DNA of 28,882 nucleotides from a virus. The notes below the pieces were generated by a model. The model saw only the letters and a list, made by a program, of their open reading frames with translations. It searched no databases and had not been told where the DNA came from. Position 1 is the stretch's first letter. Each line of letters opens with the position of its first letter. The position numbers were made by a program, and so were the translations under genes. Location: the IMG/VR virus record IMGVR_UViG_3300020437_000518, positions 1 through 28,882 of that record. One strand, 5' to 3'. Below are positions 1-28,882 of this stretch, one piece after another.

Positions 1-872
1 TCAAAACCACTTCTATCTTCATAACCACTAGGAACTTTTACCGTACCTGTGCCGTGAGGAGATAAATTAATATCTTTGTTTGAAGCACCAGTTGACATTG
101 TTTGACCATTGATTGTAATGTCATCAATAACTAGTGAAGTTAAACCTGCTATATCTGTTGTTGTAGCACCTAAAGTTAATGTAGATGAACCTAAAGTTGT
201 TTCACCATTTGTTGATAACTTAGCATTGGTTACTGCGTCATCAGCTATTTGGTTTGTATCTACACCAGAATTTGTTATGTTAAAGGTTACTACGTTGTTT
301 GTAATTGCTGAATCTAAACCAGTACCACCTGTAAATGTCAAAGTCTCATTAGTGTTGTAAGTGTCTGTACCAGTATCGCCAGCTAAATCTATATTTGAAA
401 AGATTGTTTCAAAAGATAAATTACCTGAACCGTCAGTTTTCATAAACTGACCTGCTGTACCATCACCATTAGGTAATGTAAATGTTGTTGAAGCAGCTGC
501 GTTGTTAGGTGCTTTTAAGGCAACAAAGTTTGAACCGTTGTTTGTGCCTTCGTTAAATTTAATTGTACCACCTGCTGTAGCAGAATTACCTACAATTAAT
601 TCATCTATTGATTTATTTGAATCAACAATAATTGTTGAGTTAGCAGTTAAAGCACCGTGAGCGTGGTCATTTAAATCTGCAAAATATTTACCGCCAATAA
701 TATCAATACTTGTTGCGTCACCGTTTCCATCTACTGAACCAGTACCTATGAATAATCTATCACCTAGATTTGCTTGTGAACCTGTACCGAATGTTAATGC
801 TAATTCACCTTGTTTTAGTGTTGAAGGTGCTGAAGTTGCGGAACTTCTTTTTATCTGTATTATAGTTGCCAT
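1..872 (-). CDS. Tail-fibre-type structural protein, N-terminal 290 residues (cut by left edge)
   Basis: The reading frame opens at the ATG at 872 and stays open to the window edge, so only the N-terminal 290 residues are visible. It begins MATIIQIKRSSATSAPSTLK and goes on with 'GELALTFGTG', an opening typical of fibre and tail-decorating proteins of marine T4-like phages. The rest is rich in Gly, Thr, Asn and Ser and carries the 'ADDAVTNAKLS' type motif (near residue 225) that recurs in phage fibre shafts; no Cys is seen. An AGGGAT Shine-Dalgarno lies about 7 bases before the ATG, and the gene follows the 82-residue gene after 9 bases. Role (inference): outer virion protein, probably fibre or adhesin; the receptor-binding end is outside the window. 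Confidence 0.75.
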   Translation of the reverse strand, partial: MATIIQIKRSSATSAPSTLKQGELALTFGTGSQANLGDRLFIGTGSVDGNGDATSIDIIGGKYFADLNDHAHGALTANSTIIVDSNKSIDELIVGNSATAGGTIKFNEGTNNGSNFVALKAPNNAAASTTFTLPNGDGTAGQFMKTDGSGNLSFETIFSNIDLAGDTGTDTYNTNETLTFTGGTGLDSAITNNVVTFNITNSGVDTNQIADDAVTNAKLSTNGETTLGSSTLTLGATTTDIAGLTSLVIDDITINGQTMSTGASNKDINLSPHGTGTVKVPSGYEDRSGF

Positions 873-881
873 TTTTTATCC

Positions 882-1130
882 CTAAAAGTTACCACAATTA
901 AACAAGAGCGTTCCGGTTGTGGTTACTATCTCCGTTCTGGTTACAAATTTACCATCAGAAGCTCTATATTGTAATAATGCACCATCATTTAATTCCGTTG
1001 TGTCAACATCACCTAATAATTTTAATTGTAAAGTGCTGTTCCCAGCCGCCTGCGCTGAGGGTAAGGTTACTGAAACTTTTTGTGGACCGGCACTTGTATT
1101 TACATTAATTTTAGCTGTTATATCAGGCAT
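882..1130 (-). CDS. Small virion-associated protein with 'DVDTTELNDG' motif
   Basis: An 82-residue protein. Its central part (about residues 40-65, 'LLGDVDTTELNDGALLQYRASDG') resembles the linker motif 'DVD...L..G..L.Y....G.FV' found inside marine phage fibre proteins; a related version ('ITDVTVSSPVAGDTLVYNGS') occurs in the 530-residue fibre protein at 21491-23083. It has its own late promoter (1151-1158) and a GGGAAAG ribosome-binding site. It sits directly before the fibre-type gene at 1-872. Inference: a small structural or fibre-assembly protein. No enzymatic motif is visible, and its single Cys (residue 79) is close to the C-terminus. Confidence 0.7.
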   Translation of the reverse strand: MPDITAKINVNTSAGPQKVSVTLPSAQAAGNSTLQLKLLGDVDTTELNDGALLQYRASDGKFVTRTEIVTTTGTLLFNCGNF

Positions 1131-1150
1131 TAATCTTTCCCTCTTTTCTA

Positions 1151-1158
1151 TATTTATA
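1151..1158 (-). promoter_or_regulatory. T4-type late promoter (TATAAATA)
   Basis: A perfect TATAAATA octamer on the minus strand lies 20 bases before the ATG at 1130, with a GGGAAAG ribosome-binding site between. T4 late promoters consist essentially of this -10 octamer, read by the gp55 sigma factor. It would drive the 82-residue gene and the fibre-type gene beyond it. Confidence 0.7.
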
Positions 1159-1175
1159 ACGAAAAAGAGTTAGAA

Positions 1176-1511
1176 TTAAGTAGTAACCTGTGGTCTAACA
1201 GAAATTAATCCCTCAATAACTCTGGTAACAACATCACCGGTGACGATTTCTAAATCATAAACATATCTAGTATCTTCAAGAGCTGCTGTTTGAGTTGCTG
1301 TAAGAGATAAGGTAACGACACCAGTAGCTGCGTCTGAAGCTATGGTCGTTGTAAAATCTTGTCGGGTCTTCGTGGATTGATAGCCCTTTGCTAACTTCGC
1401 TCTGGCAGTATAACCTGTCAGGTCAAAAGCATTACCATTTGCGTCTTTTACGGTTACATCCGAAGTAAAAGTGGCGCCTTGGTCAATCTGTAAGTTAGCA
1501 ATTGCAGCCAT
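1176..1511 (-). CDS. Small structural protein, all-beta (BppU-N-like)
   Basis: A 111-residue protein with the pattern 'QGATFTSDVTVKDANGNAFDLTGYTARAKL...TGVVTLSLTATQTAAL...YVYDLEI..GDVVTRVIEG'. This resembles small beta-sandwich proteins of phage tails that begin by describing a polarised 'DLTGYTARAK' strand pair (the N-terminal domain of BppU-type baseplate proteins has a similar order). No catalytic residues are apparent. The ATG overlaps or abuts the stop of the upstream 72-residue gene (TAGATG), so it is probably translated by coupling. Function beyond 'virion-associated' is inference. Confidence 0.7.
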   Translation of the reverse strand: MAAIANLQIDQGATFTSDVTVKDANGNAFDLTGYTARAKLAKGYQSTKTRQDFTTTIASDAATGVVTLSLTATQTAALEDTRYVYDLEIVTGDVVTRVIEGLISVRPQVTT

Positions 1512-1730
1512 CTATTTTTTCTCTTCTTTTTTAATTTCTGTTTCTGGTGCTTCTTTTTTAATTAATTCTACTATTTTAGCGTTATAATGATTAGTCAAAA
1601 CTTCAATTTTTTCAAGCTCAAGTTTATGTCTCGTTGCGTTCACCTGAATTTCTTGTCTTACCACTAGGTAATTTTGTAATTCAGGACTGAATTTTGTCTC
1701 ATCATATTGTTTACCATCTATTGTAATCAT
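1512..1730 (-). CDS. Small charged coiled-coil protein (DUF6447-like)
   Basis: A 72-residue protein starting 'MITIDGKQYDETKFSPELQNYL', followed by a helix rich in Glu, Lys and Leu and a Lys/Glu tail. The 'TIDGKxYD' opening followed by one long helix matches my memory of the DUF6447 family of small marine phage proteins; function unknown. It is the first gene behind the minus-strand late promoter at 1755-1762, with AAGGAGA 7 bases before the ATG. It leads the leftward block of small structural genes. Confidence 0.7.
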   Translation of the reverse strand: MITIDGKQYDETKFSPELQNYLVVRQEIQVNATRHKLELEKIEVLTNHYNAKIVELIKKEAPETEIKKEEKK

Positions 1731-1754
1731 ACCAAATTCTCCTTTGTACTATAC

Positions 1755-1762
1755 TATTTATA
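1755..1762 (-). promoter_or_regulatory. T4-type late promoter (TATAAATA), leftward
   Basis: A perfect TATAAATA octamer on the minus strand lies 24 bases upstream of the ATG at 1730. It is separated by a single base from the rightward octamer at 1764-1771, making a compact back-to-back divergent pair. Confidence 0.75.
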
Positions 1763-1763
1763 T

Positions 1764-1771: not shown

Positions 1772-1793
1772 AAGCTATAATAGGAGAAAAATT

Positions 1794-2129
1794 ATGGCTT
1801 TTTGGGCTCTAACGACATATACTAGACCGGACACATCAACTGAATTCTATATCAGAAAGAGTGTTTTAGAATTAAAAGGTAATACAGCAATAGGCGAAAA
1901 AATTGTTGAATTAGAAAATGCTGGTAAAATTACTCATTACTCTATTTCAGAGTCAGCAGATAATCTAAAACAATATATTAAGATAGGATTTGATAGTGAA
2001 GCGACTTATAATACTTTAAAATCATTTGTTGACGGTGACGCTGAAGGTTCAACTGAAAAAGCGACTTGGTTATCATCAACAGGAATAACAGCAGAAACAA
2101 CTACATCTACATCTGAACCTAGTGTATAG
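1794..2129 (+). CDS. Unknown late protein, isolated on the plus strand
   Basis: A 111-residue protein I do not recognise. The N-terminal part, 'MAFWALTTYTRPDTSTEFY', is followed by an alternating strand/helix pattern (residues 20-85) and a Thr/Ser/Glu-rich tail (residues 85-111) that is probably disordered. No Cys, signal peptide or membrane segment. It has an ideal AGGAGA ribosome-binding site and its own late promoter, and is the only rightward gene between two leftward blocks. Its 3' end overlaps the oppositely oriented 180-residue gene by 11 bases, tail to tail. Strong expression signals and late timing suggest a virion or assembly protein (inference). Confidence 0.75.
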   Translation: MAFWALTTYTRPDTSTEFYIRKSVLELKGNTAIGEKIVELENAGKITHYSISESADNLKQYIKIGFDSEATYNTLKSFVDGDAEGSTEKATWLSSTGITAETTTSTSEPSV

Positions 2130-2661
2130 GTTTATAAGGTAAGTTAATCTTATCAGTAGTAGCTGCAATATTCTGCCAACATAAATCATCATTAGGATTG
2201 CAAGTTGCATATAGACCAGGTAATACTTTATAACCTAAATCATCATCTAATAATCTAACAATACGTTTTATAGCATTTCTTTTTCTAGGTGTTTGAATAG
2301 AAAAGAAACAATCATAACCATTTTCTTTTGCCCATTTTGTTTGATATGGTATAAACCAATCTACAGCTGGTCTTAACTTTTCTTTTACATCTTTTGTCAT
2401 AGACCTTTGTCTAAAATCAGGATTTGTAAAATGTCTATCACATACTCTTACTAGATTATTACCATAGTCATATACACCTGAAAAACTAACAGGTGCATTT
2501 TTATATTCTAGTACGGTAAATAATTTATAATTAGACCATCTTTTTTGCATTTTTTCAATAGAGTAATTTTTAGCGTTCTCATCTTTCATAGAACTAGCTA
2601 ATAAAAATAAACCTGATAGTCTATTAAAATCTCTTATCTCTCGTACAATGCAATCTTCCAT
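2119..2661 (-). CDS. Possible GNAT-like acyltransferase, end of enzyme cassette
   Basis: A 180-residue protein. The order of predicted elements (helices at residues 10-45, then strand-turn-strand 'KLFTVLEYKNAPVSFSGVYD', then 'LVRVCDRHFTNP', a long helix with 'VDWFIPYQTKWAKENGYDCFFSI', then 'PRKRNAIKRIVRLLDDDLGYKV') resembles a GNAT acetyltransferase fold. A clear acetyl-CoA loop (Q/RxxGxG/A) is not visible, so the assignment is weak. The gene starts inside the 3' end of the TauD-like gene (28-base overlap), so it belongs to the same transcript, and it is last in the cassette. A related but inactive fold or a protein-binding role is equally possible. Confidence 0.7.
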   Translation of the reverse strand: MEDCIVREIRDFNRLSGLFLLASSMKDENAKNYSIEKMQKRWSNYKLFTVLEYKNAPVSFSGVYDYGNNLVRVCDRHFTNPDFRQRSMTKDVKEKLRPAVDWFIPYQTKWAKENGYDCFFSIQTPRKRNAIKRIVRLLDDDLGYKVLPGLYATCNPNDDLCWQNIAATTDKINLPYKPIH

Positions 2662-3359
2662 AAATGTCTCTTACTACCACCATTTTCTCTTTTGTGGTTT
2701 GTCGCCTTGTTATTATAAATTAAAAGTTGACCTTTTTGCCATTTGTGTCTGTGAATTCTTTTTGGGTCATATAATTTATTTTTAATCATTTGCATTTCTG
2801 GCAAATCATTATATGCCTCACAATAATATAAGTAAACACCCTCTTTGTCACCTTGTATTAATTCGTGTTCTACTTTTCTATACTTTCTTCTAAACCATCT
2901 TCTTTCTGCTTCACTTCTAAAATGATAACCATATTGTTTGTCGTGAATAAATCTATTCATATCAAATTGAACTTTATCGTCTTTATGTTTTCTATAATAA
3001 TCAGGTATATCATCAAGTATTCTACTTGATACAAATAAAGTATTACCAGCATTTTCATCTATGTCAACTGAATATAGAGCAACATACTCTGGTGGATTTT
3101 CTGAATAACCTTTATCTATATGCCATTCTAATTCAGTATTACCTTTTAGATTCTCTTTTGCTAATGCTCGTTCATCACTTACGATATTAACAAACATTTG
3201 GTCAAAAGGATCCTGTGGTGCCGGTCTAAATGCGTTTTCTAAAAAATTCCAAATTTCTACCTGGCTACAAGGTACGTTTTCTAGCACCGTCAAGTCCACC
3301 TCGTTTTGTAGCAATGGGTAAACGCTTCGGCTGTTCCAATCTAGGGTGTTGTGTTTCAT
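2634..3359 (-). CDS. TauD/TfdA-like Fe(II)/2-oxoglutarate dioxygenase
   Basis: A 241-residue protein with the iron-binding facial triad of the TauD-type family: 'ELEWHIDKG' gives His80 and Asp82, and 'NHKRENGGSKRHLWK' gives the distal His222. Arg231 is in the expected place for the 2-oxoglutarate carboxylate. 'IYNNKATNHKR' is the typical strand before the distal His. Such enzymes hydroxylate or desaturate small molecules or peptide-bound residues using O2 and 2-oxoglutarate. Its first 31 codons overlap the last 31 of the upstream radical SAM gene in another frame. The next internal Met is residue 55, which would still retain the catalytic core, so the exact start is not certain. Substrate unknown. 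Confidence 0.82.
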   Translation of the reverse strand: MKHNTLDWNSRSVYPLLQNEVDLTVLENVPCSQVEIWNFLENAFRPAPQDPFDQMFVNIVSDERALAKENLKGNTELEWHIDKGYSENPPEYVALYSVDIDENAGNTLFVSSRILDDIPDYYRKHKDDKVQFDMNRFIHDKQYGYHFRSEAERRWFRRKYRKVEHELIQGDKEGVYLYYCEAYNDLPEMQMIKNKLYDPKRIHRHKWQKGQLLIYNNKATNHKRENGGSKRHLWKIALYER

Positions 3360-4239
3360 CTATTTTTCCGTAATAATCAAAAAATGGTTCTATTTGATAA
3401 TCGTCTGTTATTATACCTCTTCTCTTACTATTTGTCAATGGTAGACCTTCATCATCTACTGACCAATCAGTTATCTTACCATACATCTTGCCCATAGAGG
3501 TTTTAAAATCAAAGGTACAAGTATTAGTTTCTTTAACACCATCAATAGTAAAATTAGGCACAATATCGCCTACTAAATTTCTCATAATACTAATCATTTC
3601 ATATATTGTAAAAGTATGACTATCTAAAAAATTTCCCATTTTACCTATTGATTTAACTCTTAACATTATAGGAAAATGAGGTCCTATTTTTCTATTATAC
3701 TTTTCACATAAACTAATTATATGCGATATTAAAGGTTGTAATATATGAATATTAGAGGGGTCTATAATAACATTTACGTGAGGAACTAAATTATTTTTAA
3801 TACAATTATCTAGGGCTCTCATTTTTAGTTTAGCATATTTACCATTATCAAATCTTTTATATACTTCATCATCTAAACCACCATTCATACTTAAACCAAT
3901 CCAGGTCATACCTGATTTTTTTAGACCTTTTACATAATCTTCCTGTGCTAATTTCAAACCATTAGTTAACATATTAGGTCTATGTTTATATTTTCTAGTT
4001 ATCTCAATTAACTTAAATAAGTCATTATTTAAAGTAGGTTCAGCACCGATAAATCTAATGTGAGTTTTATTAGGTAATCTTTTAATTACGTCTTCAAACT
4101 TTTTTACATCTACGTCTGGAAATTTTGGATTATTTAACATATCACCAAGATAACAATTAGCACAAGCCATATTGCATTGATAAGTTGTCTGAACAGACAA
4201 AATAGGAAATATATTATTTTCTGGTTTCATTACTTCCAT
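3265..4239 (-). CDS. Radical SAM protein (CX3CX2C)
   Basis: A 324-residue radical SAM enzyme. 'YQCNMACANCYLG' gives the [4Fe-4S]-binding cysteines 22, 26 and 29, and 'RFIGAEPTL' (residues 62-70) is the GGEP-type motif contacting SAM. 'MLTNGLKL' and 'WIGLSMNGG' match the later barrel strands. A C-terminal auxiliary-cluster (SPASM/twitch) Cys set is not seen. The basic C-terminal 31 residues are encoded within the overlap with the TauD-like gene. Start 4239 has GAGGA about 7 bases upstream; the ATG at 4230 (TAATG with the preceding stop) is an alternative. Position between two 2OG oxygenases suggests a shared pathway (inference). Confidence 0.85.
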   Translation of the reverse strand: MEVMKPENNIFPILSVQTTYQCNMACANCYLGDMLNNPKFPDVDVKKFEDVIKRLPNKTHIRFIGAEPTLNNDLFKLIEITRKYKHRPNMLTNGLKLAQEDYVKGLKKSGMTWIGLSMNGGLDDEVYKRFDNGKYAKLKMRALDNCIKNNLVPHVNVIIDPSNIHILQPLISHIISLCEKYNRKIGPHFPIMLRVKSIGKMGNFLDSHTFTIYEMISIMRNLVGDIVPNFTIDGVKETNTCTFDFKTSMGKMYGKITDWSVDDEGLPLTNSKRRGIITDDYQIEPFFDYYGKIDETQHPRLEQPKRLPIATKRGGLDGARKRTL

Positions 4240-4844
4240 AAAATATCCTCAAATATTTTATCAATAGCTTCTTTACAACATTTTATATTCATAACTAACA
4301 TAGTGCTATCATCTGAAAAAGAAAATATATGGTGTTGTTTATTTGTATTTAAAAAGTATGTATAACCTCTATTAAAATTTAGTATCTTATCTTCATACAT
4401 AAAATACAACCAACTAGGATTACATTTTTTAATAGGAACTATTAATCTCATAAACTTTTGTTCACCAAATTTATAACTATCTCTATGAGGTGGAAAATAA
4501 CCACCTTTTCTAAAGTTTAAAAAATGTGTTCTACACAACCAAGGTTTATAAGGGTCAACTAATTTTTGAACTTCTTTACTTTTATGATAAACAGGTGTTA
4601 ATGATGTAAAAGAATCTTCACTATAAACTTTACCTGTTTCTTTTGATAATTCATATAAACTATCTAAATCTTTTCCGTCTAACTCACCATTTTCGCTGGT
4701 GACACTTAAACCATATCTTTCTACATTTTTTCTAGGATTATATCTTTTCCATTCAAAGCCGTTTATCTCTTCTAATAACTTCTTTGAATTACAATTATTT
4801 TTTAATTGTATAAAGTCACCATATGATAATAAGTTATTATACAT
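4230..4844 (-). CDS. 2OG-Fe(II) oxygenase, aspartyl/asparaginyl-hydroxylase-like
   Basis: A 204-residue protein. 'GGYFPPHRDSYKF' gives the HxD pair (His120, Asp122), 'FMRLIVPIKK' (Arg133) matches the conserved strand after it, and 'NTNKQHHIFSFSDDS' holds the distal His (171 or 172). This order is that of the aspartyl/asparaginyl beta-hydroxylase and prolyl-4-hydroxylase-like 2OG oxygenases. The Arg usually found about ten residues after the distal His to hold 2-oxoglutarate is replaced by Ser/Thr, so cofactor binding may differ. The ATG overlaps the methyltransferase stop by one base (TAATG) with AGGAG 7 bases upstream, and the 3' end overlaps the radical SAM gene by 10 bases. A peptide or protein substrate is plausible. 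Confidence 0.8.
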   Translation of the reverse strand: MYNNLLSYGDFIQLKNNCNSKKLLEEINGFEWKRYNPRKNVERYGLSVTSENGELDGKDLDSLYELSKETGKVYSEDSFTSLTPVYHKSKEVQKLVDPYKPWLCRTHFLNFRKGGYFPPHRDSYKFGEQKFMRLIVPIKKCNPSWLYFMYEDKILNFNRGYTYFLNTNKQHHIFSFSDDSTMLVMNIKCCKEAIDKIFEDILWK

Positions 4845-5416
4845 TACTTTACTCCTATGACCATAAATCTATCGTACTTATCTAAATTTAAAGTACCACC
4901 AAACATAATCTTATCTAATTTTAAACTATCTTCAAACTCTTTTATATTATTATGACAATTAATATGGTCGTCAATTTTTTTATAATTGTTTGATTGCAAT
5001 ATTAACAATGTGCCATCTTTACATTGTTTTATCATATTGTCAATAGTTTCTTGTTTTAAATGTTCGCAAGAAGTACAAATTACAATATCATATTTTTTAT
5101 ATTTTTTAAAATCTTCTATTGATTCAATTTTAAATAATACATCATCATATAGTTTATTACCTATCAGTTTTGTATTAGGGTCTTTATCAAAAGATAAGAC
5201 TTGTTCATCTGTATAAATTTTTAGTTTGTTTGCTAAATTACCAAACCATCCAGCAGCTACACATATTTTTGGATTATCAAAATAGTCAAAATACTCTTTT
5301 GATTCAGAAATTAACCAGTCTTTACATTTTTCTTGATTGTCGTTTACTGAATTTATGATGGACTTTACTTGTTCATCATTGGTAATTTCGTCAATCACTT
5401 TTAAAATTCTATCCAT
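4844..5416 (-). CDS. Class I SAM-dependent methyltransferase-like protein
   Basis: 190 residues from the ATG at 5416. An upstream in-frame extension reaches 5518, but it would cross the late promoter and the opposite gene, so 5416 is preferred. Residues 50-62, 'KICVAAGWFGNLANKL', form the glycine-rich SAM loop; 'VLSFDKDPN' (residues 73-81) ends the second strand with the acidic ribose-binding residue; 'YDIVICTSCEHL' (residues 109-120) is motif IV, a signature of a methyltransferase-like group common in marine phages. It is the first gene behind the leftward late promoter at 5443-5450. Substrate unknown. Confidence 0.8.
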   Translation of the reverse strand: MDRILKVIDEITNDEQVKSIINSVNDNQEKCKDWLISESKEYFDYFDNPKICVAAGWFGNLANKLKIYTDEQVLSFDKDPNTKLIGNKLYDDVLFKIESIEDFKKYKKYDIVICTSCEHLKQETIDNMIKQCKDGTLLILQSNNYKKIDDHINCHNNIKEFEDSLKLDKIMFGGTLNLDKYDRFMVIGVK

Positions 5417-5423
5417 AATCTTA

Positions 5424-5431
5424 TATAAATA
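5424..5431 (+). promoter_or_regulatory. T4-type late promoter (TATAAATA) for the rightward enzyme cassette
   Basis: A perfect TATAAATA octamer lies 33 bases before the ATG at 5465. If the octamer spans -13 to -6 as in T4, transcription would start at about 5437, within the interval shared with the opposing promoter at 5443-5450. Confidence 0.7.
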
Positions 5432-5442
5432 TATACAATTAT

Positions 5443-5450
5443 TATTTATA
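5443..5450 (-). promoter_or_regulatory. T4-type late promoter (TATAAATA) for the leftward enzyme cassette
   Basis: A perfect TATAAATA octamer on the minus strand lies 26 bases before the methyltransferase ATG at 5416. It points toward the rightward promoter at 5424-5431, and both predicted start sites fall at about 5437. Confidence 0.7.
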
Positions 5451-5464
5451 AGAGATAATGAAGT

Positions 5465-6343
5465 ATGATGAATAGAGCTATTTTTAGTCTGTATATTGAT
5501 GTGCCTGAAAAAGAACATTATGGTAAGTCAAATTTTAAAGGCGATAGTATTGACAAAGGTTTAAAAACCAGAAATGCCTTTAAGAACAACTATCAGAAAC
5601 TAATTGATTGTAAAACAAAGTATGCCGAATCTATAGGTGCGTCTTTTCATATGTTTGAATATGATGAAGACTATAAAACATATTCTGATAACTTAAAAAA
5701 AGATTTTCCTTATTTAACAGGTTACGAAATAGTTAATTTTTATAAGATACATTTATTGTATATTTTAGCAAAAAAATATGATGAGATATTATACCTAGAT
5801 TTTGACGCTGTGCCTGTTACCAAAGATAATTTTTTTGAAGTATGGGATTTATCTAAAGGTATATGTGTTTATAATAATAACGCTATGGTAAATAAAATGA
5901 ATAGGACTATTGATAAGATGAAACACGGCACTAGAAGTCCTACAGCTAAATTCTTTAACGCTCAGGCAATGCTAATTGCTGGTAGTTATAATCCTAAAAA
6001 TGATGTTATTAATACAGGCATTATAGGTGCTAGAAAAGAAGATATATTAAAGTTAGATTTCTTTGGTAAATTTTATGATACTATGAACTTAATGACAAAA
6101 TTAAAAGATGACGGTCTTGACGGATTATATCCTGAAAATATAATTGATATTTTTAGATATGACAATGAAACAATATTTTCATATAAGGTTGAAGTTAATA
6201 AAGTAAATGTTCAATGGTTAGATAATATATGGCATTATTTTTATGATAATCAATTTTATATACCTAAAGAAACAAAAATAATACACACAATTAATAAAGA
6301 GTTTGAAAATGTTTGGAGGTTTTATGAAAAATATTGTATATAG
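5465..6343 (+). CDS. Glycosyltransferase, GT-A fold with DxD (first of two tandem paralogues)
   Basis: A 292-residue protein. 'YDEILYLDFDAVPVTKDNFF' contains the metal- and sugar-nucleotide-binding DxD (Asp112-x-Asp114) in the context typical of retaining GT-A glycosyltransferases resembling GT8/GT34. 'VINTGIIGARK' (about residues 180-190) and a C-terminal 'KIIHTINKEF' match acceptor-side and C-terminal family elements. No signal peptide or membrane segment, so it should act in the cytoplasm. It is first in the rightward cassette behind the late promoter at 5424-5431. ATG codons at 5465 and 5468 are both possible starts. The next gene is a paralogue. Donor and acceptor are unknown. Confidence 0.82.
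   Translation: MMNRAIFSLYIDVPEKEHYGKSNFKGDSIDKGLKTRNAFKNNYQKLIDCKTKYAESIGASFHMFEYDEDYKTYSDNLKKDFPYLTGYEIVNFYKIHLLYILAKKYDEILYLDFDAVPVTKDNFFEVWDLSKGICVYNNNAMVNKMNRTIDKMKHGTRSPTAKFFNAQAMLIAGSYNPKNDVINTGIIGARKEDILKLDFFGKFYDTMNLMTKLKDDGLDGLYPENIIDIFRYDNETIFSYKVEVNKVNVQWLDNIWHYFYDNQFYIPKETKIIHTINKEFENVWRFYEKYCI
6315..6320 (+). promoter_or_regulatory. Strong Shine-Dalgarno that fixes the start of the second glycosyltransferase
   Basis: GGAGGT, a full-strength ribosome-binding site, lies inside the end of the preceding gene 3 bases before the ATG at 6324. It favours that ATG over the one at 6303, which has no such site. Confidence 0.7.
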
Positions 6344-7184
6344 TATCTATATTATAAATGATGATGAAACTATTAGCGAAAAACATAAAAGAACTAAACA
6401 TCATTTAAAAGAAAATTTACTTAAATTAACTGAAGTAAAAAAACAATATGCTGAAAAATGTGGCGCTGAGTTTGTATTATTTTATGCCGATAAAGATTGG
6501 GAAAAATTTGAAGACAAATATAGAGAGTATAAGTTTGATACTATTAATTTATATAAGATACATTTATTTGAAAAATTAAGTAAAGAATATGATAATGTTT
6601 TGTATCTTGATTTAGATGTTATACCTAATACAGATGAGTCATTTTTTGACAAATTTGATATGAACAAGATTAATGTATATGCGCCAGAAGCTACAATAGA
6701 AAATACTTGGAAAGAAAAAGAAATTATTAACTATAATACAAATAGAGCAACTTTTGATGAAATAATATCTGTTAAAGACAAATATGATATGTATGTAAAA
6801 GCAGTCTGTAAGAGAGCTATGTTGGCGACTAATGACATATACAATACTAATTATTTTATAGCAAATACAGCAATTCTAGGTGCAAATAAAAAAGCAATAA
6901 AAAATTTAAAATTTACAGATAATTTAGATTATATGATTGAAGTATTAAACAAAGCAAAAAATGAAGAGTTTTATGGAGAAACAATATCTAAATTATTTTT
7001 TCCTAATAATGAGGTATTTTTTCACTACCTATTAGAAAAGAATAATATAGATTGGTATAATTTACCTAGAGAATGGCACACGTATTATTTAAAAAATGAC
7101 GTGGTAGGACCTGAAGTAAATGACGCAAAAATGATACACCTAATTAACAAAAAATTTAATGACCTATGGATGAATCTGAAGTAA
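6324..7184 (+). CDS. Glycosyltransferase, GT-A fold with DxD (second tandem paralogue)
   Basis: 286 residues from the ATG at 6324, chosen because of GGAGGT just upstream; it overlaps the previous gene by 20 bases. 'LYKIHLFEKLSKEYDNVLYL' (about residues 76-95) followed by DLD (Asp96-x-Asp98) aligns by eye with the first paralogue ('FYKIHLLYILAKKYDEILYL' plus DFD), as do 'ANTAILGANK' and the C-terminal 'KMIHLINKKFNDLW'. The pair arose by tandem duplication and has diverged strongly between these landmarks, so the two probably differ in donor or acceptor. Cytoplasmic; no membrane segment visible. Confidence 0.82.
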   Translation: MKNIVYSIYIINDDETISEKHKRTKHHLKENLLKLTEVKKQYAEKCGAEFVLFYADKDWEKFEDKYREYKFDTINLYKIHLFEKLSKEYDNVLYLDLDVIPNTDESFFDKFDMNKINVYAPEATIENTWKEKEIINYNTNRATFDEIISVKDKYDMYVKAVCKRAMLATNDIYNTNYFIANTAILGANKKAIKNLKFTDNLDYMIEVLNKAKNEEFYGETISKLFFPNNEVFFHYLLEKNNIDWYNLPREWHTYYLKNDVVGPEVNDAKMIHLINKKFNDLWMNLK

Positions 7185-8302
7185 AAAAATTTTATAATAA
7201 AAATAAATCTTATTGTGCTATGCCATTTAAAGAGATATATGGCGATAATGCTGGTAGATATAGATTTTGTTGCCACGCTACAGAATATGAACCTATAAAA
7301 AAATATACTACAACTAATACAACACCATTTGATTTTTTCTTTTCGTCTGAAATGGAAGAAGTTAGAAATAAGATGTTATCTGGAGAAAAAATAGACGCTT
7401 GTAAAGTGTGTTATGATTTAGAAAAAAATAATAATGAATCATATAGAACTGGTAAATATAAAAAGAAATATGGTGTTGATTTAGAACCAAAACGAATTGG
7501 TTTAAAGTTGAGAATACACGGCTCTTATTGTAATCTAGGTTGTTATATGTGCCACCCTTATAACTCATCTACTAGACGAAATGAACTAAAAAAAGTATTC
7601 GGTAATAAATCATTAACAAATTGGAACGCATACCAACCACTAAATCATAAACAATGGAATGATAGTGTTAATGATATAATTAATAATATTGATAAAGTTG
7701 CATATATGAATATTACAGGTGGTGAACCATTACAATTACCAGGCCATTGGAAATTATTAGATAGAATACCAGATGAACACGCAAAACATATAACTTTATC
7801 ATATGACACAAATTTAACAGAGTTAGAATGGAAAAACAAATCAATATTTGACTATGTTGATAAGTTTGAAAAAATTAATTTAGGTGTTTCGTGTGACCAT
7901 TATGGTAAGAAAGAAGAGTGGATTAGATACCCTATTGACATAAAAAAATTTGAAAACAATTTAAAAAGAGCTCATAATTTAATCAAACAATTAAATTGTA
8001 CGGTGTCTTTATTAAATGTATTTGACTTATCAGAAATATATGATTACTATATGAACAAATTTGGCATAAAAACAACTTTTGTTAATGTATGTAGAGGACC
8101 TGAATTTTTATCTGTTAGAAATTTAAAACAAAAAGATAAAGATATGTTGTTAGAAAAATATAAAAATTTTACTGACTTTTCATACTTTGAAAATGAAATT
8201 AGAAAACATCCTACACACGAATTTGATAAATTAAGAACGTATTGTGATTCATTATCTAAACATAGAAATTTTGACTGGAAGGAATTGTGGAATGAATTTT
8301 AG
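7166..8302 (+). CDS. Radical SAM protein with N-terminal twitch domain
   Basis: A 378-residue enzyme with two Cys sets. The N-terminal set (Cys17, Cys35-Cys36, Cys79, Cys82, the last in 'DACKVCYDLE') matches the auxiliary [4Fe-4S]-binding twitch domain. The radical SAM set is Cys122, Cys126 and Cys129 in 'GSYCNLGCYMCHP', followed by the GGEP motif at about residues 185-188 ('NITGGEPLQ'). A twitch domain placed ahead of the barrel is a known architecture (twitch domain-containing radical SAM proteins). Auxiliary clusters usually bind peptide substrates or carry electrons in such enzymes, so peptide or protein modification is plausible. It overlaps the glycosyltransferase gene by 19 bases and the next radical SAM gene by 11. 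Confidence 0.85.
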   Translation: MDESEVKKFYNKNKSYCAMPFKEIYGDNAGRYRFCCHATEYEPIKKYTTTNTTPFDFFFSSEMEEVRNKMLSGEKIDACKVCYDLEKNNNESYRTGKYKKKYGVDLEPKRIGLKLRIHGSYCNLGCYMCHPYNSSTRRNELKKVFGNKSLTNWNAYQPLNHKQWNDSVNDIINNIDKVAYMNITGGEPLQLPGHWKLLDRIPDEHAKHITLSYDTNLTELEWKNKSIFDYVDKFEKINLGVSCDHYGKKEEWIRYPIDIKKFENNLKRAHNLIKQLNCTVSLLNVFDLSEIYDYYMNKFGIKTTFVNVCRGPEFLSVRNLKQKDKDMLLEKYKNFTDFSYFENEIRKHPTHEFDKLRTYCDSLSKHRNFDWKELWNEF

Positions 8303-8927
8303 AAGTAGGTCAGTTAATATTGACTCAACAATTAGATGTACTTTAGAATGTCCAAAATGCCAACGTCAAGCATTGAGACGAAAAGGTAAAAAAATACCTG
8401 GTCAAGATATGATATTTGATGATTTAATTAAACTTACAAAATATTTTAAAAAAGGTGTAAACTTTTGTGGTCAAATGTCTGACCCTATATTTCATCCTGA
8501 ATTTATTAATATGTTAAAATATTGTTATGATAATAATATTAATACTAGAATTGCTACTGCGGCTTCACACAAAAAAACTAGTTGGTACAAAGAGGCATTT
8601 TTAGCAAATAAAAATGCTAAATGGGTTTTTGGCATAGATGGTTTACCTAAAGATAGTCATAAGTATAGAATTAATCAAGACGGAGAACATCTATTTAATA
8701 TGATGAAAATGGCAAATGATTTTGGATTATCTGTTATATGGCAATGCATTGTTTTTAGATATAATGAAAATGATATTGAAAAATGTAAACAATTAGCAAA
8801 AGAAAATAATATTAAGATTGATATTAATATGTCTGGTCGTTGGCGAAATGATGACAAATATAAACCTTTAAATCCAAAATATTATTTAAATAGTAATAGA
8901 GAAGAGTTTTACAAAAGTTTAAAATGA
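8292..8927 (+). CDS. Radical SAM core protein lacking its own twitch domain
   Basis: 211 residues from the ATG at 8292, supported by AAGGA at 8279-8283 with 8-base spacing (an ATG at 8244 exists but lacks this support). 'STIRCTLECPKCQRQAL' gives Cys16, Cys20 and Cys23. 'CGQMSDPIFHPEF' stands where GGEP normally lies, and 'WVFGIDGLPKDSH' matches a later barrel strand. The chain ends where a twitch domain would be expected; that domain is encoded at the start of the next gene, in the -1 frame. The last codons (AGT TTA AAA TGA) form a canonical slippery heptamer at the stop, so a fused product is possible. Confidence 0.85.
   Translation: MNFRSRSVNIDSTIRCTLECPKCQRQALRRKGKKIPGQDMIFDDLIKLTKYFKKGVNFCGQMSDPIFHPEFINMLKYCYDNNINTRIATAASHKKTSWYKEAFLANKNAKWVFGIDGLPKDSHKYRINQDGEHLFNMMKMANDFGLSVIWQCIVFRYNENDIEKCKQLAKENNIKIDINMSGRWRNDDKYKPLNPKYYLNSNREEFYKSLK
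8918..8924 (+). other. Candidate -1 ribosomal frameshift site (TTTAAAA)
   Basis: The heptamer T TTA AAA is in the correct register (codons TTA and AAA, preceded by the T of AGT) and is followed at once by TGA. A -1 slip would continue at ATG ATA AAA, precisely the frame of the downstream gene. The downstream ATG has no Shine-Dalgarno in the usual window; only AGAGAAGAG, about 17 or more bases away, resembles one. I did not find a convincing downstream stem-loop. In AT-rich DNA such a heptamer can arise by chance. Confidence 0.45.
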
Positions 8928-9982
8928 TAAAACCTAAATGTCTACCACCTGGTAAAAAAGAAATAGCTTACACTACAACAGGACATATTGTGCCTTGTTG
9001 TTGGCTTGATAACCCATTAGGTTGGGAAGAACCTCAAATTAAAAGGTTGTATCAAGATAAATTAAAAGTATCTAATAATAAAGATATAGAAAGTATTGTA
9101 GATAGTAAAGAGTGGAATGATTTTTTTAAAGAATTAAAAACTAATCCATCAGAAACTTGTACAAGATTTTGTTCAGGTCCTATTGACTCAAGTATTAATA
9201 GAGCAAGAGAAAATGAACACAAACCAGGTAAAATAAAAATATGCACATTATATTTTGAAGGCAAATATACGCCAGACTATGTAGAGAAACTATACAATAG
9301 TTTAAAAAGAAACTGCACTATTCCTTTTGAGTTTATTTGTTATAGTGATAACCCTAATGTGAAAGCTGATGTTGTAATACCTTTAGTTAAACATAGTGAT
9401 ATTAAATTACATTGGTATAAATTGTCTTACTTCTCGCCTTTATTTGCTAATCAAAATCCGAATGATGAAATAATAATTATGGATATTGACCAAATTATTG
9501 TAGGCAATGTAGATGATATGATTGGTTATCCTGTTGGCGATAATGAATTAGTATCTTATAATAAATGGTGGGGTGGCAAACCTACTTACAATTTAAAATT
9601 AAATGGTGGATTTTATAAGTTTAAATCTGGTCATTTAAAAAAAATATGGGACGATTTTATATTAGCACCTGAAGATTGGCAACTAGATTGGTATAATAGA
9701 GGTGTTGTTCATTACAAATATTATGGAGAACAAAATTATGTAAATCATAAGTGTAAAGAACATAATATAAAATTAACTTTAATGCCAGCAGAATGGGTAT
9801 GCAAACTTACAAATAATGAAAAAGAAGATATAGAAAACCAACTTAAATATATGAAAAAATTTAATAAAGATTATATGATATTAGATAAACCTATTGATGA
9901 TTTAAAAGTTGTTCACTTTGCAAATCCTCACGCTAACATACATAATAGTAAATATGATTGGATAAAAGATTACTGGAAATGA
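8924..9982 (+). CDS. Twitch-domain / glycosyltransferase fusion protein
   Basis: A 352-residue two-domain protein. Residues 1-90 carry Cys6, Cys25-Cys26 ('GHIVPCCWLDN') and Cys79-x3-Cys83 ('ETCTRFCSGP'), the same Cys order as the twitch domain of the radical SAM protein at 7166-8302. Residues 104-352 are a GT-A glycosyltransferase: 'KIKICTLYF' opens the fold, 'IIIMDIDQIIVGN' carries the DxD (Asp187, Asp189), 'KLNGGFYKF' the acceptor-side strand, and 'VVHFANPHAN' near the end resembles the HFxGxxKPW element of GT8-like enzymes. It begins with an ATGA overlap with the radical SAM core gene, to which the twitch half must once have belonged. Such a fusion suggests the same substrate is handled by a radical SAM and a glycosyl-transfer step (inference). 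Confidence 0.8.
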   Translation: MIKPKCLPPGKKEIAYTTTGHIVPCCWLDNPLGWEEPQIKRLYQDKLKVSNNKDIESIVDSKEWNDFFKELKTNPSETCTRFCSGPIDSSINRARENEHKPGKIKICTLYFEGKYTPDYVEKLYNSLKRNCTIPFEFICYSDNPNVKADVVIPLVKHSDIKLHWYKLSYFSPLFANQNPNDEIIIMDIDQIIVGNVDDMIGYPVGDNELVSYNKWWGGKPTYNLKLNGGFYKFKSGHLKKIWDDFILAPEDWQLDWYNRGVVHYKYYGEQNYVNHKCKEHNIKLTLMPAEWVCKLTNNEKEDIENQLKYMKKFNKDYMILDKPIDDLKVVHFANPHANIHNSKYDWIKDYWK

Positions 9983-10551
9983 GAATAATTTGTGTTAATA
10001 CTGGTAATAAATTTGGTCAATGGTATGTTGATAATCTAAAACATATGATTGATAATTATTCTGGTTTAAAATATGATAGCTTTGAAGTAATTGATGAAGA
10101 AAAGCATAAAGGTGTTTTTAATAAACTTCAAATGTTTGATAAGTTTAGAGACGGTGAAAATTTATATTTTGATTTAGATATTTGCATATACAATAAAGTA
10201 CCTAATTTAATTAGAAAAGATTTGACCGTTCTACACGCCTGGTGGCGAGACAGAGACCACACTTCCCTTAATTCGTCTGTAATATCTTGGACAGGTGACC
10301 AATCTCACATTTACGATACTTTTAAAAAAGATGTTAATATGTGGCAAGAAAAATATAACAAGGGTATGGACCAAATGTTAGAAGAAAATTTTAAAGTTGC
10401 AACCTATGACAAAGTATGCTATACTATAAAAGATAATGAATATAAAAATAAAAATGATAATTATAGTATAATGTTATTTAATCAGAGACAATATCTTATG
10501 ATGTCTGGTTGGTCTAGTTGGTGGACTGATTACTTTCTTCCCAAAGAGTAA
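9979..10551 (+). CDS. Short GT-A glycosyltransferase-like protein
   Basis: 190 residues from the ATG at 9979, chosen for the ATGA overlap with the previous stop rather than the in-frame ATG at 9958. 'NLYFDLDICIYNK' gives the DxD (Asp65, Asp67). 'HAWWRDRDHTSLNSSVISW' parallels 'YNKWWGGKPTYNLKLNGGFY' in the preceding fusion protein, so the two are related. It is short for the family and lacks an obvious C-terminal HxxGxxKPW-like element, so it may be a reduced paralogue or work with a partner. Last gene of the rightward cassette; its end overlaps the leftward gene at 10514-11023 by 38 bases, tail to tail. Confidence 0.78.
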   Translation: MRIICVNTGNKFGQWYVDNLKHMIDNYSGLKYDSFEVIDEEKHKGVFNKLQMFDKFRDGENLYFDLDICIYNKVPNLIRKDLTVLHAWWRDRDHTSLNSSVISWTGDQSHIYDTFKKDVNMWQEKYNKGMDQMLEENFKVATYDKVCYTIKDNEYKNKNDNYSIMLFNQRQYLMMSGWSSWWTDYFLPKE

Positions 10552-23108: not shown

Positions 23109-23115
23109 ATCATTT

Positions 23116-25695: not shown

Positions 25696-25701
25696 TAATC
25701 A

Positions 25702-27549
25702 TTAATAACTTGATGATGTTGTGTAACCTACACCTGCCTCAGCAGAACCACCAACAAAACTATCCTCTTCTACACTAATTAAAGAATTTGCTACATCTAT
25801 TTCTACAATCTGGTCTCTTACTGGTACAACATCATTTGAAGCAGGCACCACGGTGATTTCAACAACCGTTGAAGCCGCACCTCTAATATTAGATATTGAA
25901 GCAATGTTAAGTGAATTTAAAGTTACCTGACCTGTATTATAATCAATTGTACCTTGCGTGTTGTTTGCATAAGTTTTAACACCACTTACTAGATAATATC
26001 TTCTTACGTTTCCTTGACCATCATCATCTAAAAACATTTCTTCGTTTGAACCAGTTACCTTAAAACCTGTTGAAGTTAAAATACCACCAGCAGCTGAGTT
26101 ATGTCCTGAATGAGGATTATATAATGCATTTCTAAAGTAAACATTGTAAGCAGCTGATGTTGCTAATGAAGGAGCAAAACTTTTTCTAACTTTTAATGTG
26201 GTAACATTTGATAAAATACTATTGTCTGTATCATCAATAAGACCTGTTAATTTTGAATGTCTAAAGACACTATCAAATTTTTGAAGTGTGCCAGTATTAT
26301 AATTTGTTATTGTAGATATTATATCTGCCTTTAAAGTATCTTTTGATTTTGTTGTTGCTTTAGCGTCATACTTAGCATTTGTAGTTAATAAAACTGAAGT
26401 TGTTTCCGGGTCAACAATTTCTGGTTTAACAGAGGCAACATTAAATGGTTTCAATCCATTTACTATATCTAATTTTGTTTGGTCAGTTAATGTAGAACCA
26501 GAACCTGGTTTAATTGCTATCTTAACAATACCATATCTTGGTGTTTCATCATCTTCACCACCCCAAGCACTTACTGATAATGCGTTAGGGTAAATATTTT
26601 TTACAAGTGTTTCATAATCTGTTGTTGTTACCGCTCTATCTTGAGCTGCAAAATTTAAAGGCGCATTGAATTTAACTGATTCATTATCTTCAGCTTCTGA
26701 ACCACCTTGAGAACTAGAATTAGTTGTAATGGTTACGTCTGTAAAACCACCAACACTACCTTGTAAACCAAAAACATTTGCGCCATTTGAATCTGTTTTG
26801 TTTGTAACCACATATTCTAAAATTACAACATTACCATTTTCTAATTTTTTACCGGTAACACCATCACCAAAATAAACTTCAAATTTACCGTCTCTTTGTT
26901 CTTGAATAAAATAAACTTTTGAACTAGCGTCAACGCCAGTATAACCACTTGATAAAGTGTATGCTGACAATGTTGTATCGTTAGCAGAATTTTGTACAGA
27001 TACTTTTAAAGTTGAAGTATCAGCGTTTGCATTTGGTATAACAAATTTTTGGTCAACATCTGTTTCATCAACCGTATATTTAAATTTAACTAAAGTACCT
27101 TCATAAATGGTTACGTTTGAAAAAGTAAATATACCATCAATAGGTGTTGTTGTAATATCTTCGTTGGTTACATATTGATAAGATACATCATTTACTTTAG
27201 AATCAAAAGTTGTACCTTTTGCCATTGTTATAGACGTTCCTGTTCCGTCATTAACAACAATATTAATAGAAGCTCTAGGTGCTCTTGGTGAGTTAGGTGT
27301 ATAACCCAACATTTTTGCTAGTGATACAATATTATTTCTAATATCGGCACTATCTAGGTATAATTCGTTTGTTGACATATTGGCCAAGTAGGCCATATAG
27401 TGAGTGTTGTAAGAAAGTATATCTAATAAGATTGAAAGACCTGAACCTTCAAAATCATAATCTTGAAATTGTGTTTGACTTTGTAAAAATGATTTTAAGT
27501 TTTGTTTTATATTAATAAAATCTAAATCTGATACCGTTAACTTTGCCAT
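25702..27549 (-). CDS. 6: Baseplate wedge protein gp6-like
   Basis: A 615-residue protein. 'LTVSDLDFINIKQNLKSFLQ' then 'FQDYDFEGSGLSILLDILSY', 'THYMAYLANMSTNELYLDSA' and 'NIVSLAKMLGYTPNSPRAPR' (residues 3-95) is the highly conserved N-terminal helical region of gp6/Baseplate_J-type proteins. 'AQDRAVTTTDYETLVKNIYP' (about residues 305-325) is the second diagnostic segment, and 'VYFGDGVTGKKL' lies before it. gp6 forms the inner ring that joins baseplate wedges and controls the dome-to-star change. One base separates it from the gp25 gene, as expected for the gp25-gp6 pair. Confidence 0.9.
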   Translation of the reverse strand: MAKLTVSDLDFINIKQNLKSFLQSQTQFQDYDFEGSGLSILLDILSYNTHYMAYLANMSTNELYLDSADIRNNIVSLAKMLGYTPNSPRAPRASINIVVNDGTGTSITMAKGTTFDSKVNDVSYQYVTNEDITTTPIDGIFTFSNVTIYEGTLVKFKYTVDETDVDQKFVIPNANADTSTLKVSVQNSANDTTLSAYTLSSGYTGVDASSKVYFIQEQRDGKFEVYFGDGVTGKKLENGNVVILEYVVTNKTDSNGANVFGLQGSVGGFTDVTITTNSSSQGGSEAEDNESVKFNAPLNFAAQDRAVTTTDYETLVKNIYPNALSVSAWGGEDDETPRYGIVKIAIKPGSGSTLTDQTKLDIVNGLKPFNVASVKPEIVDPETTSVLLTTNAKYDAKATTKSKDTLKADIISTITNYNTGTLQKFDSVFRHSKLTGLIDDTDNSILSNVTTLKVRKSFAPSLATSAAYNVYFRNALYNPHSGHNSAAGGILTSTGFKVTGSNEEMFLDDDGQGNVRRYYLVSGVKTYANNTQGTIDYNTGQVTLNSLNIASISNIRGAASTVVEITVVPASNDVVPVRDQIVEIDVANSLISVEEDSFVGGSAEAGVGYTTSSSY

Positions 27550-27550
27550 A

Positions 27551-27976: not shown

Positions 27977-27984
27977 AACGCTAA

Positions 27985-27992
27985 TATTTATA
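27985..27992 (-). promoter_or_regulatory. Late-promoter-like octamer very close to the gp25 start
   Basis: A perfect TATAAATA on the minus strand, in the 24-base gap between PAAR and gp25. By the T4 spacing the transcript would begin about 3 bases before the ATG, giving an almost leaderless message; it may be a coincidental match. Confidence 0.4.
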
Positions 27993-28000
27993 TACTTTTA

Positions 28001-28303
28001 CTAGCCGTTTGCAAAAACATTTGGTGACCCACTTGTCATTTGACCTGCGTCTGCACTATCACCAATTCTACCTACTTTAATACCAACAACATAAACGTTT
28101 GGCGAGCCTGCATTGATAAATGCTACGTGATTAGGGCAAGGTGGCGCTGGTGGATTAGGGTGTGATACCGTTGGGTCGCCTACTCTTGCAACTAATATGT
28201 TATTTGCAAAGACGGTACTTTGACCAGGCGTATCAAGTGTAGTTGTACTAGTACAGATATGACCAGTTGATAAAGTATCACCTTTTCTAACGATTGCTGG
28301 CAT
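28001..28303 (-). CDS. PAAR-domain tail-spike tip protein (gp5.4-like)
   Basis: A 100-residue protein of the PAAR family. 'MPAIVRKGDTLSTGHICTST' then 'VFANNILVARVGDPTVSH' and 'CPNHVAFINAGSPNVYVVGI' and 'VGRIGDSADAG' and 'SGSPNVFANG' are repeated turns of the PAAR cone. Candidate metal ligands are His15, Cys17, His48, Cys56 and His59. PAAR proteins sharpen the gp5 needle and touch the host membrane first; T4 gp5.4 is the counterpart. The gene overlaps the upstream 93-residue gene by 17 bases. Confidence 0.9.
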   Translation of the reverse strand: MPAIVRKGDTLSTGHICTSTTTLDTPGQSTVFANNILVARVGDPTVSHPNPPAPPCPNHVAFINAGSPNVYVVGIKVGRIGDSADAGQMTSGSPNVFANG

Positions 28304-28568
28304 ATCTACTTTTTTCTTTTGCTTCTCTAGCTGCTTTAAGTGCTAATCTTTTTTTCTCTAATATTGCAGCTTCTCTAATTTTTCTGCCAATTGGTATATT
28401 AATATAATGGCACATTTGTTTGCCTTTTTTACTAATATATTCAACTGCTATCTGTGATTCTTTAAAATCGCCTTGTACAGACATTGTTGCTTTTTTCAAG
28501 CTCATTGCTTCTTTTTCTTTTTCTTCACCTGCTTCATTCCAAAACTTAAATATTCTCATTTTTGCCAT
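28287..28568 (-). CDS. Unknown small basic protein preceding PAAR
   Basis: A 93-residue protein with 'MRIFKFWNEAGEEKEKEAMS' early on, a central strand pair 'MSVQGDFKESQIAVEYIS', and a highly charged helical C-terminus ('AAILEKKRLALKAAREAKEK'). Single Cys at residue 53. I recall similar proteins beside PAAR/gp25 in marine T4-like phages but know no function. Met1 (28568) is three bases after the stop of the Cys-rich gene; Met4 (28559) is an alternative start. It overlaps PAAR, so these genes are co-translated. Confidence 0.75.
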   Translation of the reverse strand: MAKMRIFKFWNEAGEEKEKEAMSLKKATMSVQGDFKESQIAVEYISKKGKQMCHYINIPIGRKIREAAILEKKRLALKAAREAKEKSRYASNR

Positions 28569-28571
28569 TTT

Positions 28572-28709
28572 TTACTCACTTTTACATTTTTCACATCTAC
28601 AAGAATTACAACATAACACTAAAATGTCTTTTCCGTCGCCATCTTTGTAATTTTGTGTACAAGTTTGTCCACAATGTTCTTTATGCCCACAATTATTGCA
28701 ATGTTTCAT
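28572..28709 (-). CDS. 45-residue Cys-rich mini-protein, probable zinc-binding
   Basis: A small reading frame from ATG 28709 to TAA at 28572. The 45 residues include nine Cys (4, 7, 13, 17, 33, 34, 37, 39, 42) and three His (3, 9, 12). They form two clusters: 'CNNCGHKEHCGQTC' and 'LCCNSCRCEKC', separated by a polar loop 'KDGDGKDI'. CxxC pairs in two knuckles suggest one or two zinc sites. AAAAGG lies about 9 bases before the ATG, and the stop is 3 bases before the next gene, so it fits the operon. The function is unknown; a small adaptor protein is possible. Confidence 0.7.
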   Translation of the reverse strand: MKHCNNCGHKEHCGQTCTQNYKDGDGKDILVLCCNSCRCEKCKSE

Positions 28710-28726
28710 TGATTTTTACCTTTTTT

Positions 28727-28882
28727 CTAAAAAACACAACGAAAATGAGCGTAAATTTTTTCGTCTTTCAACATTTTTAGCGCTGATTCGCTCTCATAAC
28801 TAAAGGAATCGCAATTTTCTTGTATTTTTGAACAGGAAACGCACAAAAAGAACGTAACCAGAACAAAAAAAGTCAAAAATCG
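28727..28882 (-). CDS. Probable small membrane or lipoprotein, N-terminus beyond right edge
   Basis: An open frame enters at the right edge and ends at TAG 28727-28729, giving 51 visible residues. The first 14 are hydrophobic ('RFLTFFVLVTFFLC'), followed by 'VSCSKIQENCDSFSYESE', a hydrophilic tail. A hydrophobic stretch ending near a Cys resembles a lipoprotein signal, although the -3 residue before 'VSC' is Cys rather than Leu/Val/Ile. The real start lies outside the window, or could be the TTG at the third visible codon. The stop lies 17 bases before the Cys-rich gene. Holin, spanin or superinfection-exclusion roles cannot be told apart. Confidence 0.5.
   Translation of the reverse strand, partial: RFLTFFVLVTFFLCVSCSKIQENCDSFSYESESALKMLKDEKIYAHFRCVF

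Follow-up and report, generated by a model that had tools for sequence, protein, structure and literature searches.

GATC, CATG and several other short words have been purged from a stretch of viral DNA of 28,882 nt (the window, meaning the whole stretch that was analysed), and some of them survive only in fixed sequence contexts. Our preferred reading, to which we give a probability of about 0.7 on the evidence of word counts, is that type II restriction in the hosts purged the unprotected sites and that the phage protects the remainder by modifying its DNA at GGA and GCY. The baseplate genes, which are closest to those of SAR11 myoviruses, identify the window as part of the genome of a pelagimyophage, a T4-like phage of the ocean bacterium SAR11; its gp6 is 74.7% identical to that of Pelagibacter phage Mosig, and its gp25 and PAAR gene order agrees with SAR11 myoviruses. 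We placed it among its relatives by a gp6 tree, where a 109-kb contig (gp6 84% identical) represents the same lineage. The features referred to below are:

1..28882, unstranded: GATC purged except as GGATCC; CATG, TCGA, CGCG, CASTG and HCTNAGD absent (Markov counts and codon shuffles)
219..224, unstranded: CTNAG retained as CTTAGC (GCTNAG on the opposite strand); further CTNAG starts at 1055, 5961, 6466, 12806, 14295, 20637, 22423, 25738, 26094 and 26371
2119..11741, unstranded: enzyme island, purged equally
3208..3213, unstranded: first surviving GATC, as GGATCC, an exempt context
7274..7277, + strand: example of His CAC before G (also at 7517, 7778, 8216 and 10234)
7895..7898, + strand: example of Asp GAC before C (also at 8481, 9488, 10255, 10297 and 10369)
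15371..15376, unstranded: second surviving GATC, as GGATCC, an exempt context
25702..27549, - strand: gp6 baseplate wedge gene (PHROG 219, E 2.8e-182), marker for the tree of relatives

Word loss and codon choice in the window

Word counts are given as observed/expected, the nulls being base composition, a maximal-order Markov model, and amino-acid-preserving codon shuffles (2000 runs). A first-pass annotation, made from the sequence of the window, had found GATC only twice, both times within GGATCC, and CATG not at all, where base composition would predict 80-90 copies of each. Exact counts agree (2 and 0, with 83 expected for each word), and both words also fall far below the Markov expectation (68 for GATC, 66 for CATG) and the codon shuffles (55.7 ± 5.0 with a minimum of 40, and 44.5 ± 4.7 with a minimum of 29). 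The palindromes that it had called common do occur at normal frequency: GTAC 91/96, CTAG 86/75 and AGCT 59/70. It had also noticed that TCGA was missing and suspected CpG scarcity as part of the cause, which is correct, yet a deficit remains (0 observed vs 83 by base composition, 15 by the Markov model and 27.7 ± 4.3 in codon shuffles). CGCG is absent too, with 17.5 expected by base composition and 12 by the Markov model; its shuffle expectation of 3.3 ± 1.8 makes the absence not significant under that null in so short a window. Depleted words beyond those of the first-pass annotation were CASTG (0 vs 19.0 in codon shuffles) and HCTNAGD (0 vs 31.3 in codon shuffles and 57 under the Markov model), and all 11 CTNAG sites that the window retains are GCTNAG on one strand, that is, with G as 5' flank. 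GANTC outside GGA showed no purge (51/50), and the gapped type I-like motifs that we examined gave only weak or compositional signals.

Synonymous codon switching, described earlier from eleven positions, all of which read as quoted, extends to all coding sequence. Before C, the codon for Asp is GAT once and GAC 42 times (elsewhere 401 and 128); before G, that for His is never CAT and 27 times CAC (elsewhere 64 and 28).

A compositional or mutational bias, whether CpG scarcity, codon usage or deamination of methylated cytosine, might deplete words in this way, and scarce CpG does account for some of the TCGA loss, but we regard it as barely credible as the general cause: the depletion goes far beyond both the codon-shuffled and the Markov nulls, and absolute zeros combined with context exemptions are not what mutation bias is expected to produce. 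Deamination in particular was rejected because, at the 24 positions that read CATG in Mosig, the window carries mainly CACG (10/24, a T-to-C change), with the deamination products TATG or CATA at only 6/24; the amino acids were kept in 15/24.

The enzyme island is as depleted as the remainder (GATC 1 vs 23 expected, CATG 0 vs 30), from which it had been concluded that the island is no recent arrival. The depletion does argue against recent capture from non-avoiding DNA, but the island could still be a recent gain from a different phage that faced this pressure as well.

Lineage-specific purges and their exempt contexts

Among the relatives, as judged from their genome sequences, the purge is absolute and differs from lineage to lineage. 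The 109-kb contig has CATG at 0/251 and GATC at 10/273, all ten as GGATCC; overall, surviving GATC is GGATCC in 16/16 cases in the window clade and in 19/19 in Mosig. The window's clade lacks CATG, whereas in sister clades it is ACGT or CCGG that is missing – in the Mosig sister clade, ACGT is found 0 times vs 188 expected in 141 kb – and CGCG is missing from the window's relatives throughout.

The contexts that spare a site recur across different words. In HTVC008M, sites without GGA are gone (GATC 0/311, GANTC 0/258, TCNNGA 0/281), while those with GGA persist (GATC 83/94, GANTC 43/78, TCNNGA 141/110); the TCNNGA outcome was forecast before counting. GCGC without GCY is likewise absent from the window clade (0/44), Mosig (0/23), the Mosig clade (0/56), HTVC008M (0/39) and Melnitz (0/38), and in all five GCGC with the adjoining pyrimidine (GCY) is normal. 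In contigs with a Melnitz-type C5-methyltransferase, CCNGG stands at 5/335 without GCC and at 137/101 with it; phages without that methyltransferase do not avoid CCNGG.

These patterns are consistent with two layers. In the first, which is well supported, a long history of type II restriction in the host community has removed recognition sites, mostly through synonymous change, the sites lost being GATC, CATG, CGCG, CTNAG, GCGC, YGCNGCR and others in sets that vary by phage clade. In the second, suggested by the footprints, the phage would modify a base in the short contexts GGA (TCC) and GCY (RGC), and a site holding the modified base would not be cut and hence would never be purged; if modified sites are uncut, GGATCC would be the one form in which GATC persists, and GCTNAG the one form of CTNAG. 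Two details constrain this model. GCNGC always contains one internal GCY, and YGCNGCR is nevertheless purged, so only an outer mark could protect it. In the window clade GATC survives if each strand has GGA, while in HTVC008M a single strand suffices, so the model has to suppose that the enzymes are unequally sensitive to half-modified sites.

The exemption might instead be a property of the enzymes, if host enzymes read HGATCD, HGANTCD, HCTNAGD and YGCNGCR and leave uncut any site that has G (or R) as its flank. Such enzymes would account for the flank rule with no need of modification, and every avoided class can indeed be written as a degenerate palindrome. We think this unlikely, since podoviruses that infect the same host have lost these cores with the spared contexts included: HTVC011P (GATC 0/64 and 0/22), HTVC019P (0/72 and 0/25) and HTVC010P (CTNAG 0/73 and 0/42) show no exemption, and the exemption therefore appears to be owned by the phage rather than by the enzyme. 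Further, the sparing G lies inside the TCNNGA site in HTVC008M, and a single trinucleotide accounts for three different sites in that phage, as another does for four in Melnitz.

Host restriction as the probable source of selection

The depletion is not shared with the host: in 592 kb of SAR11 DNA the observed/expected ratios were 0.96 for GATC, 1.20 for CATG and 1.16 for CGCG. We found a C5-methyltransferase above cut-off in 34 of 197 SAR11 genomes, several of these genes adjoining named endonuclease families, and the type II restriction-modification (R-M) families in SAR11 included Bsp6I (GCNGC), Eco47II, TdeIII and SinI. HNH pairs were also among the R-M enzymes of SAR11 genomes. The GATC- and CATG-specific enzymes for which a search had been proposed did not turn up, as the DpnII and ICEA/NlaIII Pfam families gave no above-cut-off match in 397 SAR11 genomes. 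A sole, weak NlaIII-like match was rejected, its locus having a gene that resembles a 16S rRNA dimethyltransferase but no partner methyltransferase.

Alternatively, the phages may themselves encode site-specific nucleases against host or rival DNA and so be obliged to clear the sites from their own DNA. In favour of this, the set of avoided words is constant within a phage clade, and R-M is reported to be nearly absent from SAR11 (PMC7029224, PMC9516812). Nonetheless we hold this origin to be quite improbable: each phage avoids too many different words, most of them known type II specificities, many are common to unrelated podoviruses, and SAR11 does have type II R-M, as counted above. Avoidance of regulatory methylation by the host (e.g. 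by CcrM at GANTC), rather than of cutting, is less probable still. GANTC is methylated in SAR11 and scarce in some pelagiphages (PMC9516812), and HTVC008M does lack HGANTCD; but GANTC is unpurged in the window, and GATC, CATG and CGCG are not among the SAR11 marks described in the accessible part of that paper.

Strong, long-standing selection by type II restriction, in keeping with the past selection by restriction systems that the first-pass annotation had proposed, is thus the best account of the purge and is well supported: the purge is absolute, exceeds the codon null, is absent from host DNA and affects words that match type II specificities. The proposal was incomplete in that the lineage-specific fingerprint takes in more words than GATC and CATG, and in that the exemptions of GGATCC and GCTNAG, which are not due to chance, suggest a second layer, putatively phage DNA modification.

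Candidate modification genes and known systems

The marks might be made by two DruA-family GNAT-like proteins, by an adjoining MT-A70 adenine methyltransferase or, in Melnitz-like phages, by a C5-cytosine methyltransferase encoded at that locus. Two DruA-family genes occur in most pelagimyophages that we examined, one of them next to the DNA polymerase, and the 109-kb contig carries both together with MT-A70. The DruA profile PF14236 was present in HTVC008M, in Mosig and in five contigs from the clades of the window and of Mosig, with no match in Melnitz or the podoviruses examined. As a check of the GNAT fold, an AlphaFold model of a DruA-family candidate (pLDDT 71) had GNAT acetyltransferases as its best PDB matches (probability at most 0.97, E 0.013 or worse); DUF4338 has been described as a GNAT domain (PMC10853773), and Mom-family GNAT enzymes modify adenine (PMC7824862). 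The methyltransferase families PF00145, PF02086 and PF01555 were found in neither HTVC008M nor Mosig, and PF05063 was not found in HTVC008M. MT-A70 was rejected as the source of the GGA mark, being present in some contigs where GATC is hardly purged and absent from HTVC008M, where the mark is clearest. Tentatively, the DruA-family GNAT proteins by the DNA polymerase might be new sequence-specific DNA modifiers of GGA and/or GCY, with the missing words reading out their specificity.

That the purge is complete shows restriction to be a major force acting on SAR11 phages, though the literature says that the host lacks restriction systems. If the exemptions are footprints of modification, the modification specificities of uncultured phages, and the enzymes that they have met, would become inferable from genomes alone, and conserved DruA-family phage genes would gain a function; the DNA-protection chemistry of this virus may be readable from its sequence.

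We found no description in the literature consulted of the GGA and GCY contexts, or of the DruA-family candidates, for phage DNA. Both phage paralogs match PF14236 above cut-off, which is their likeness to Druantia DruA (DUF4338); unlike Druantia DruA, the phage gene adjoins a phage DNA polymerase. As with the GNAT protein Mom of phage Mu and the C5- and N6-methyltransferases of phages, a phage enzyme is proposed to shield sites in a short context, but here the modification is read from missing words only. Seong et al. 2022 (PMC9516812) likewise report lineage-specific loss of a methylation/restriction word in SAR11 phages, a single word and mainly in podoviruses, with no context exemption or wider set described in the accessible part of that paper. 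Rusinov et al. 2018 (PMC6286503) found site avoidance in about one tenth of viral genomes, and the resemblance to our phages is that non-temperate dsDNA phages have lost all or almost all of their orthodox type II sites; our phages differ in that many words are lost together, in sets that vary between sister clades and under strict context rules. Restriction-site avoidance itself is therefore known, and what appears to be new, as far as the genome sequences tell, is a multi-word, clade-specific purge with context exemptions.

Word loss in the window and its relatives

The near-absence of GATC and CATG noticed in the first-pass annotation held under both nulls: observed counts against Markov expectation (observed/expected) were 2/68 for GATC, 0/66 for CATG, 0/15 for TCGA and 0/12 for CGCG, and protein-preserving synonymous-codon shuffles gave 55.7, 44.5, 27.7 and 3.3, respectively. 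The codon switching described there was borne out as well, with Asp encoded by GAC in 42 of 43 cases before C and His by CAC in 27 of 27 before G, and the enzyme island is indeed purged equally with the tail genes. The SAR11 host contigs examined showed no comparable depletion of these words. Further words avoided in the window and relatives, several of them non-palindromic, were CASTG, CAGGG, CATCG, GATGC, CCCATC, AGTACT, TCTAGA, CTTAAG and GTGCAC.

T4-like baseplate genes occupy the right half of this IMG/VR virus record, and its gp6 protein has its nearest match in Pelagibacter phage Mosig EXVC030M (74.7% identity), followed by HTVC008M and the OM43 phage Melnitz, which identifies the window as part of a pelagimyophage genome. 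At 2119-10551, tail genes flank an island of radical SAM, glycosyltransferase-like and 2OG-Fe oxygenase-like genes, and Mosig has a similar island at 54701-71305.

Among 80 contigs with related gp6, first grouped by missing words and then placed on a gp6 protein tree, different words were missing in different groups: CATG in the window clade (with GATC confined to GGATCC), ACGT in the Mosig clade (0/462 on contigs, 0/188 in the 141-kb Mosig genome), and both CATG and CCGG in a third clade, with CGCG absent throughout. The window clade had 100/100 support on the tree, as did the clade lacking ACGT and a GATC-only clade; ACGT absence required two changes and CATG absence five. On a 109-kb contig sharing 84% gp6 identity with the window, CATG was at 0/251 and GATC at 10/273, all 10 within GGATCC. 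Contigs found via DNA polymerase were typed by CATG, ACGT and GATC, so that, of their counts, only those for CTNAG and GCGC do not depend on that selection.

Context of the surviving sites

Survival of the remaining sites is non-random. GATC survived only as GGATCC in the window clade (all 16 sites) and Mosig (all 19), and in HTVC008M each surviving GATC was flanked by G on one or both sides, GGA being required for survival of both GATC and GANTC. CTNAG in the window clade was purged without GCY (5/443) and survived with it, as GCTNAG (153/174); GCGC without GCY was at zero in all T4-like pelagiphage groups tested and in Melnitz. A prediction recorded before the test, that TCNNGA in HTVC008M would survive only when containing GGA, agreed with the counts (TCAAGA 0/144, TCATGA 0/44 and TCTAGA 0/59 without; TCAGGA 62/44 and TCCAGA 78/61 with). 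Melnitz has purged CCGG, CCNGG, GGNCC and GGNNCC except when containing GCC, as have some 80 contigs with a Melnitz-type C5-methyltransferase, and CCNGG was not avoided in phages without that enzyme. In two of the contig groups set by missing words, A and B, GGATCC stood several-fold above expectation (16 vs 6 and 82 vs 11), which would fit an escape of GATC sites through acquired G and C flanks. Opposite to the GCC exemption, GGGCC/GGCCC was nearly missing and GGWCC normal in groups A, B and C, Mosig and HTVC008M, a pattern that Melnitz reverses.

Such exemptions could reflect flank preference of the restriction enzymes or modification of the phage DNA. Podoviruses that infect the same host offer a natural control, and three were compared: HTVC011P and HTVC019P had zero GATC, GGATCC included, HTVC010P had zero CTNAG, GCTNAG included, and HTVC019P had zero GCGC. 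Thus host-community pressure also removes the spared contexts, provided that the same enzymes act, and sparing is peculiar to the T4-like phages. These sequence patterns support phage DNA modification as the probable shield over enzyme flank preference. Modification would need extra assumptions to explain why GATC requires GGA on both strands in the window clade vs one in HTVC008M, and why YGCNGCR is purged though it contains an internal GCY; the window itself carries no modification gene. HTVC011P (L478), which has a gene annotated as antirestriction peptidase, lacked GATC, GANTC, CCNGG and TCGA entirely, along with most GCNGC, and no context was exempt.

Restriction enzymes and candidate modifiers

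Restriction-modification (R-M) is described as nearly absent from SAR11 in two papers (PMC7029224, PMC9516812), contrary to which we found type II R-M loci in SAR11-family genomes:

SAR11-family type II R-M loci (stretches of those genomes)
L450, L455, L461, L470, L474, L464-L466, L477

A C5-methyltransferase scored above cut-off in 34 of 197 SAR11-family genomes, neighbouring endonuclease families included Bsp6I, Eco47II, TdeIII, SinI and NgoFVII, and HNH proteins adjoin paired C5-methyltransferases. Bsp6I is known to cut GCNGC, which is among the purged words. The proposed search for GATC- and CATG-specific enzymes turned up other type II families, and scanning SAR11 genomes with Pfam families gave no DpnII- or NlaIII-type enzyme; restriction enzymes diverge fast, so this absence is weak evidence.

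On the phage side, a C5-methyltransferase gene adjoins DNA polymerase in Melnitz, whose authors considered it possible protection. A window-clade contig carries an MT-A70 gene adjoined by a PHROG 19197 protein matching DruA/DUF4338, and in HTVC008M a PHROG 19197 gene lies beside the polymerase, with a second DruA paralog elsewhere. The Mosig MT-A70 gene is severed by the record ends (L082:1-232, L084:41033-41461) and its frame is not restored on joining, so the deposited record may be incomplete.

DruA/DUF4338-family genes in phage stretches
L438:13953-15050; L445:3535-4659: PHROG 19197 gene, kept beside DNA polymerase in pelagimyophages
L480, L481, L483, L484: second, more distant paralog

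DruA genes numbered two in HTVC008M, two on the window-clade contig and one in Mosig; none were found in Melnitz, the podoviruses or cyanophage P-HM1. A predicted structure model of moderate confidence weakly matched GNAT enzymes, and we regard DruA-family proteins as candidate GNAT-like DNA modifiers, as a lead and not a demonstration. Published work describes DUF4338 as belonging to the GNAT domains (PMC10853773), and the adenine modifier Mom of phage Mu is a GNAT (PMC7824862).
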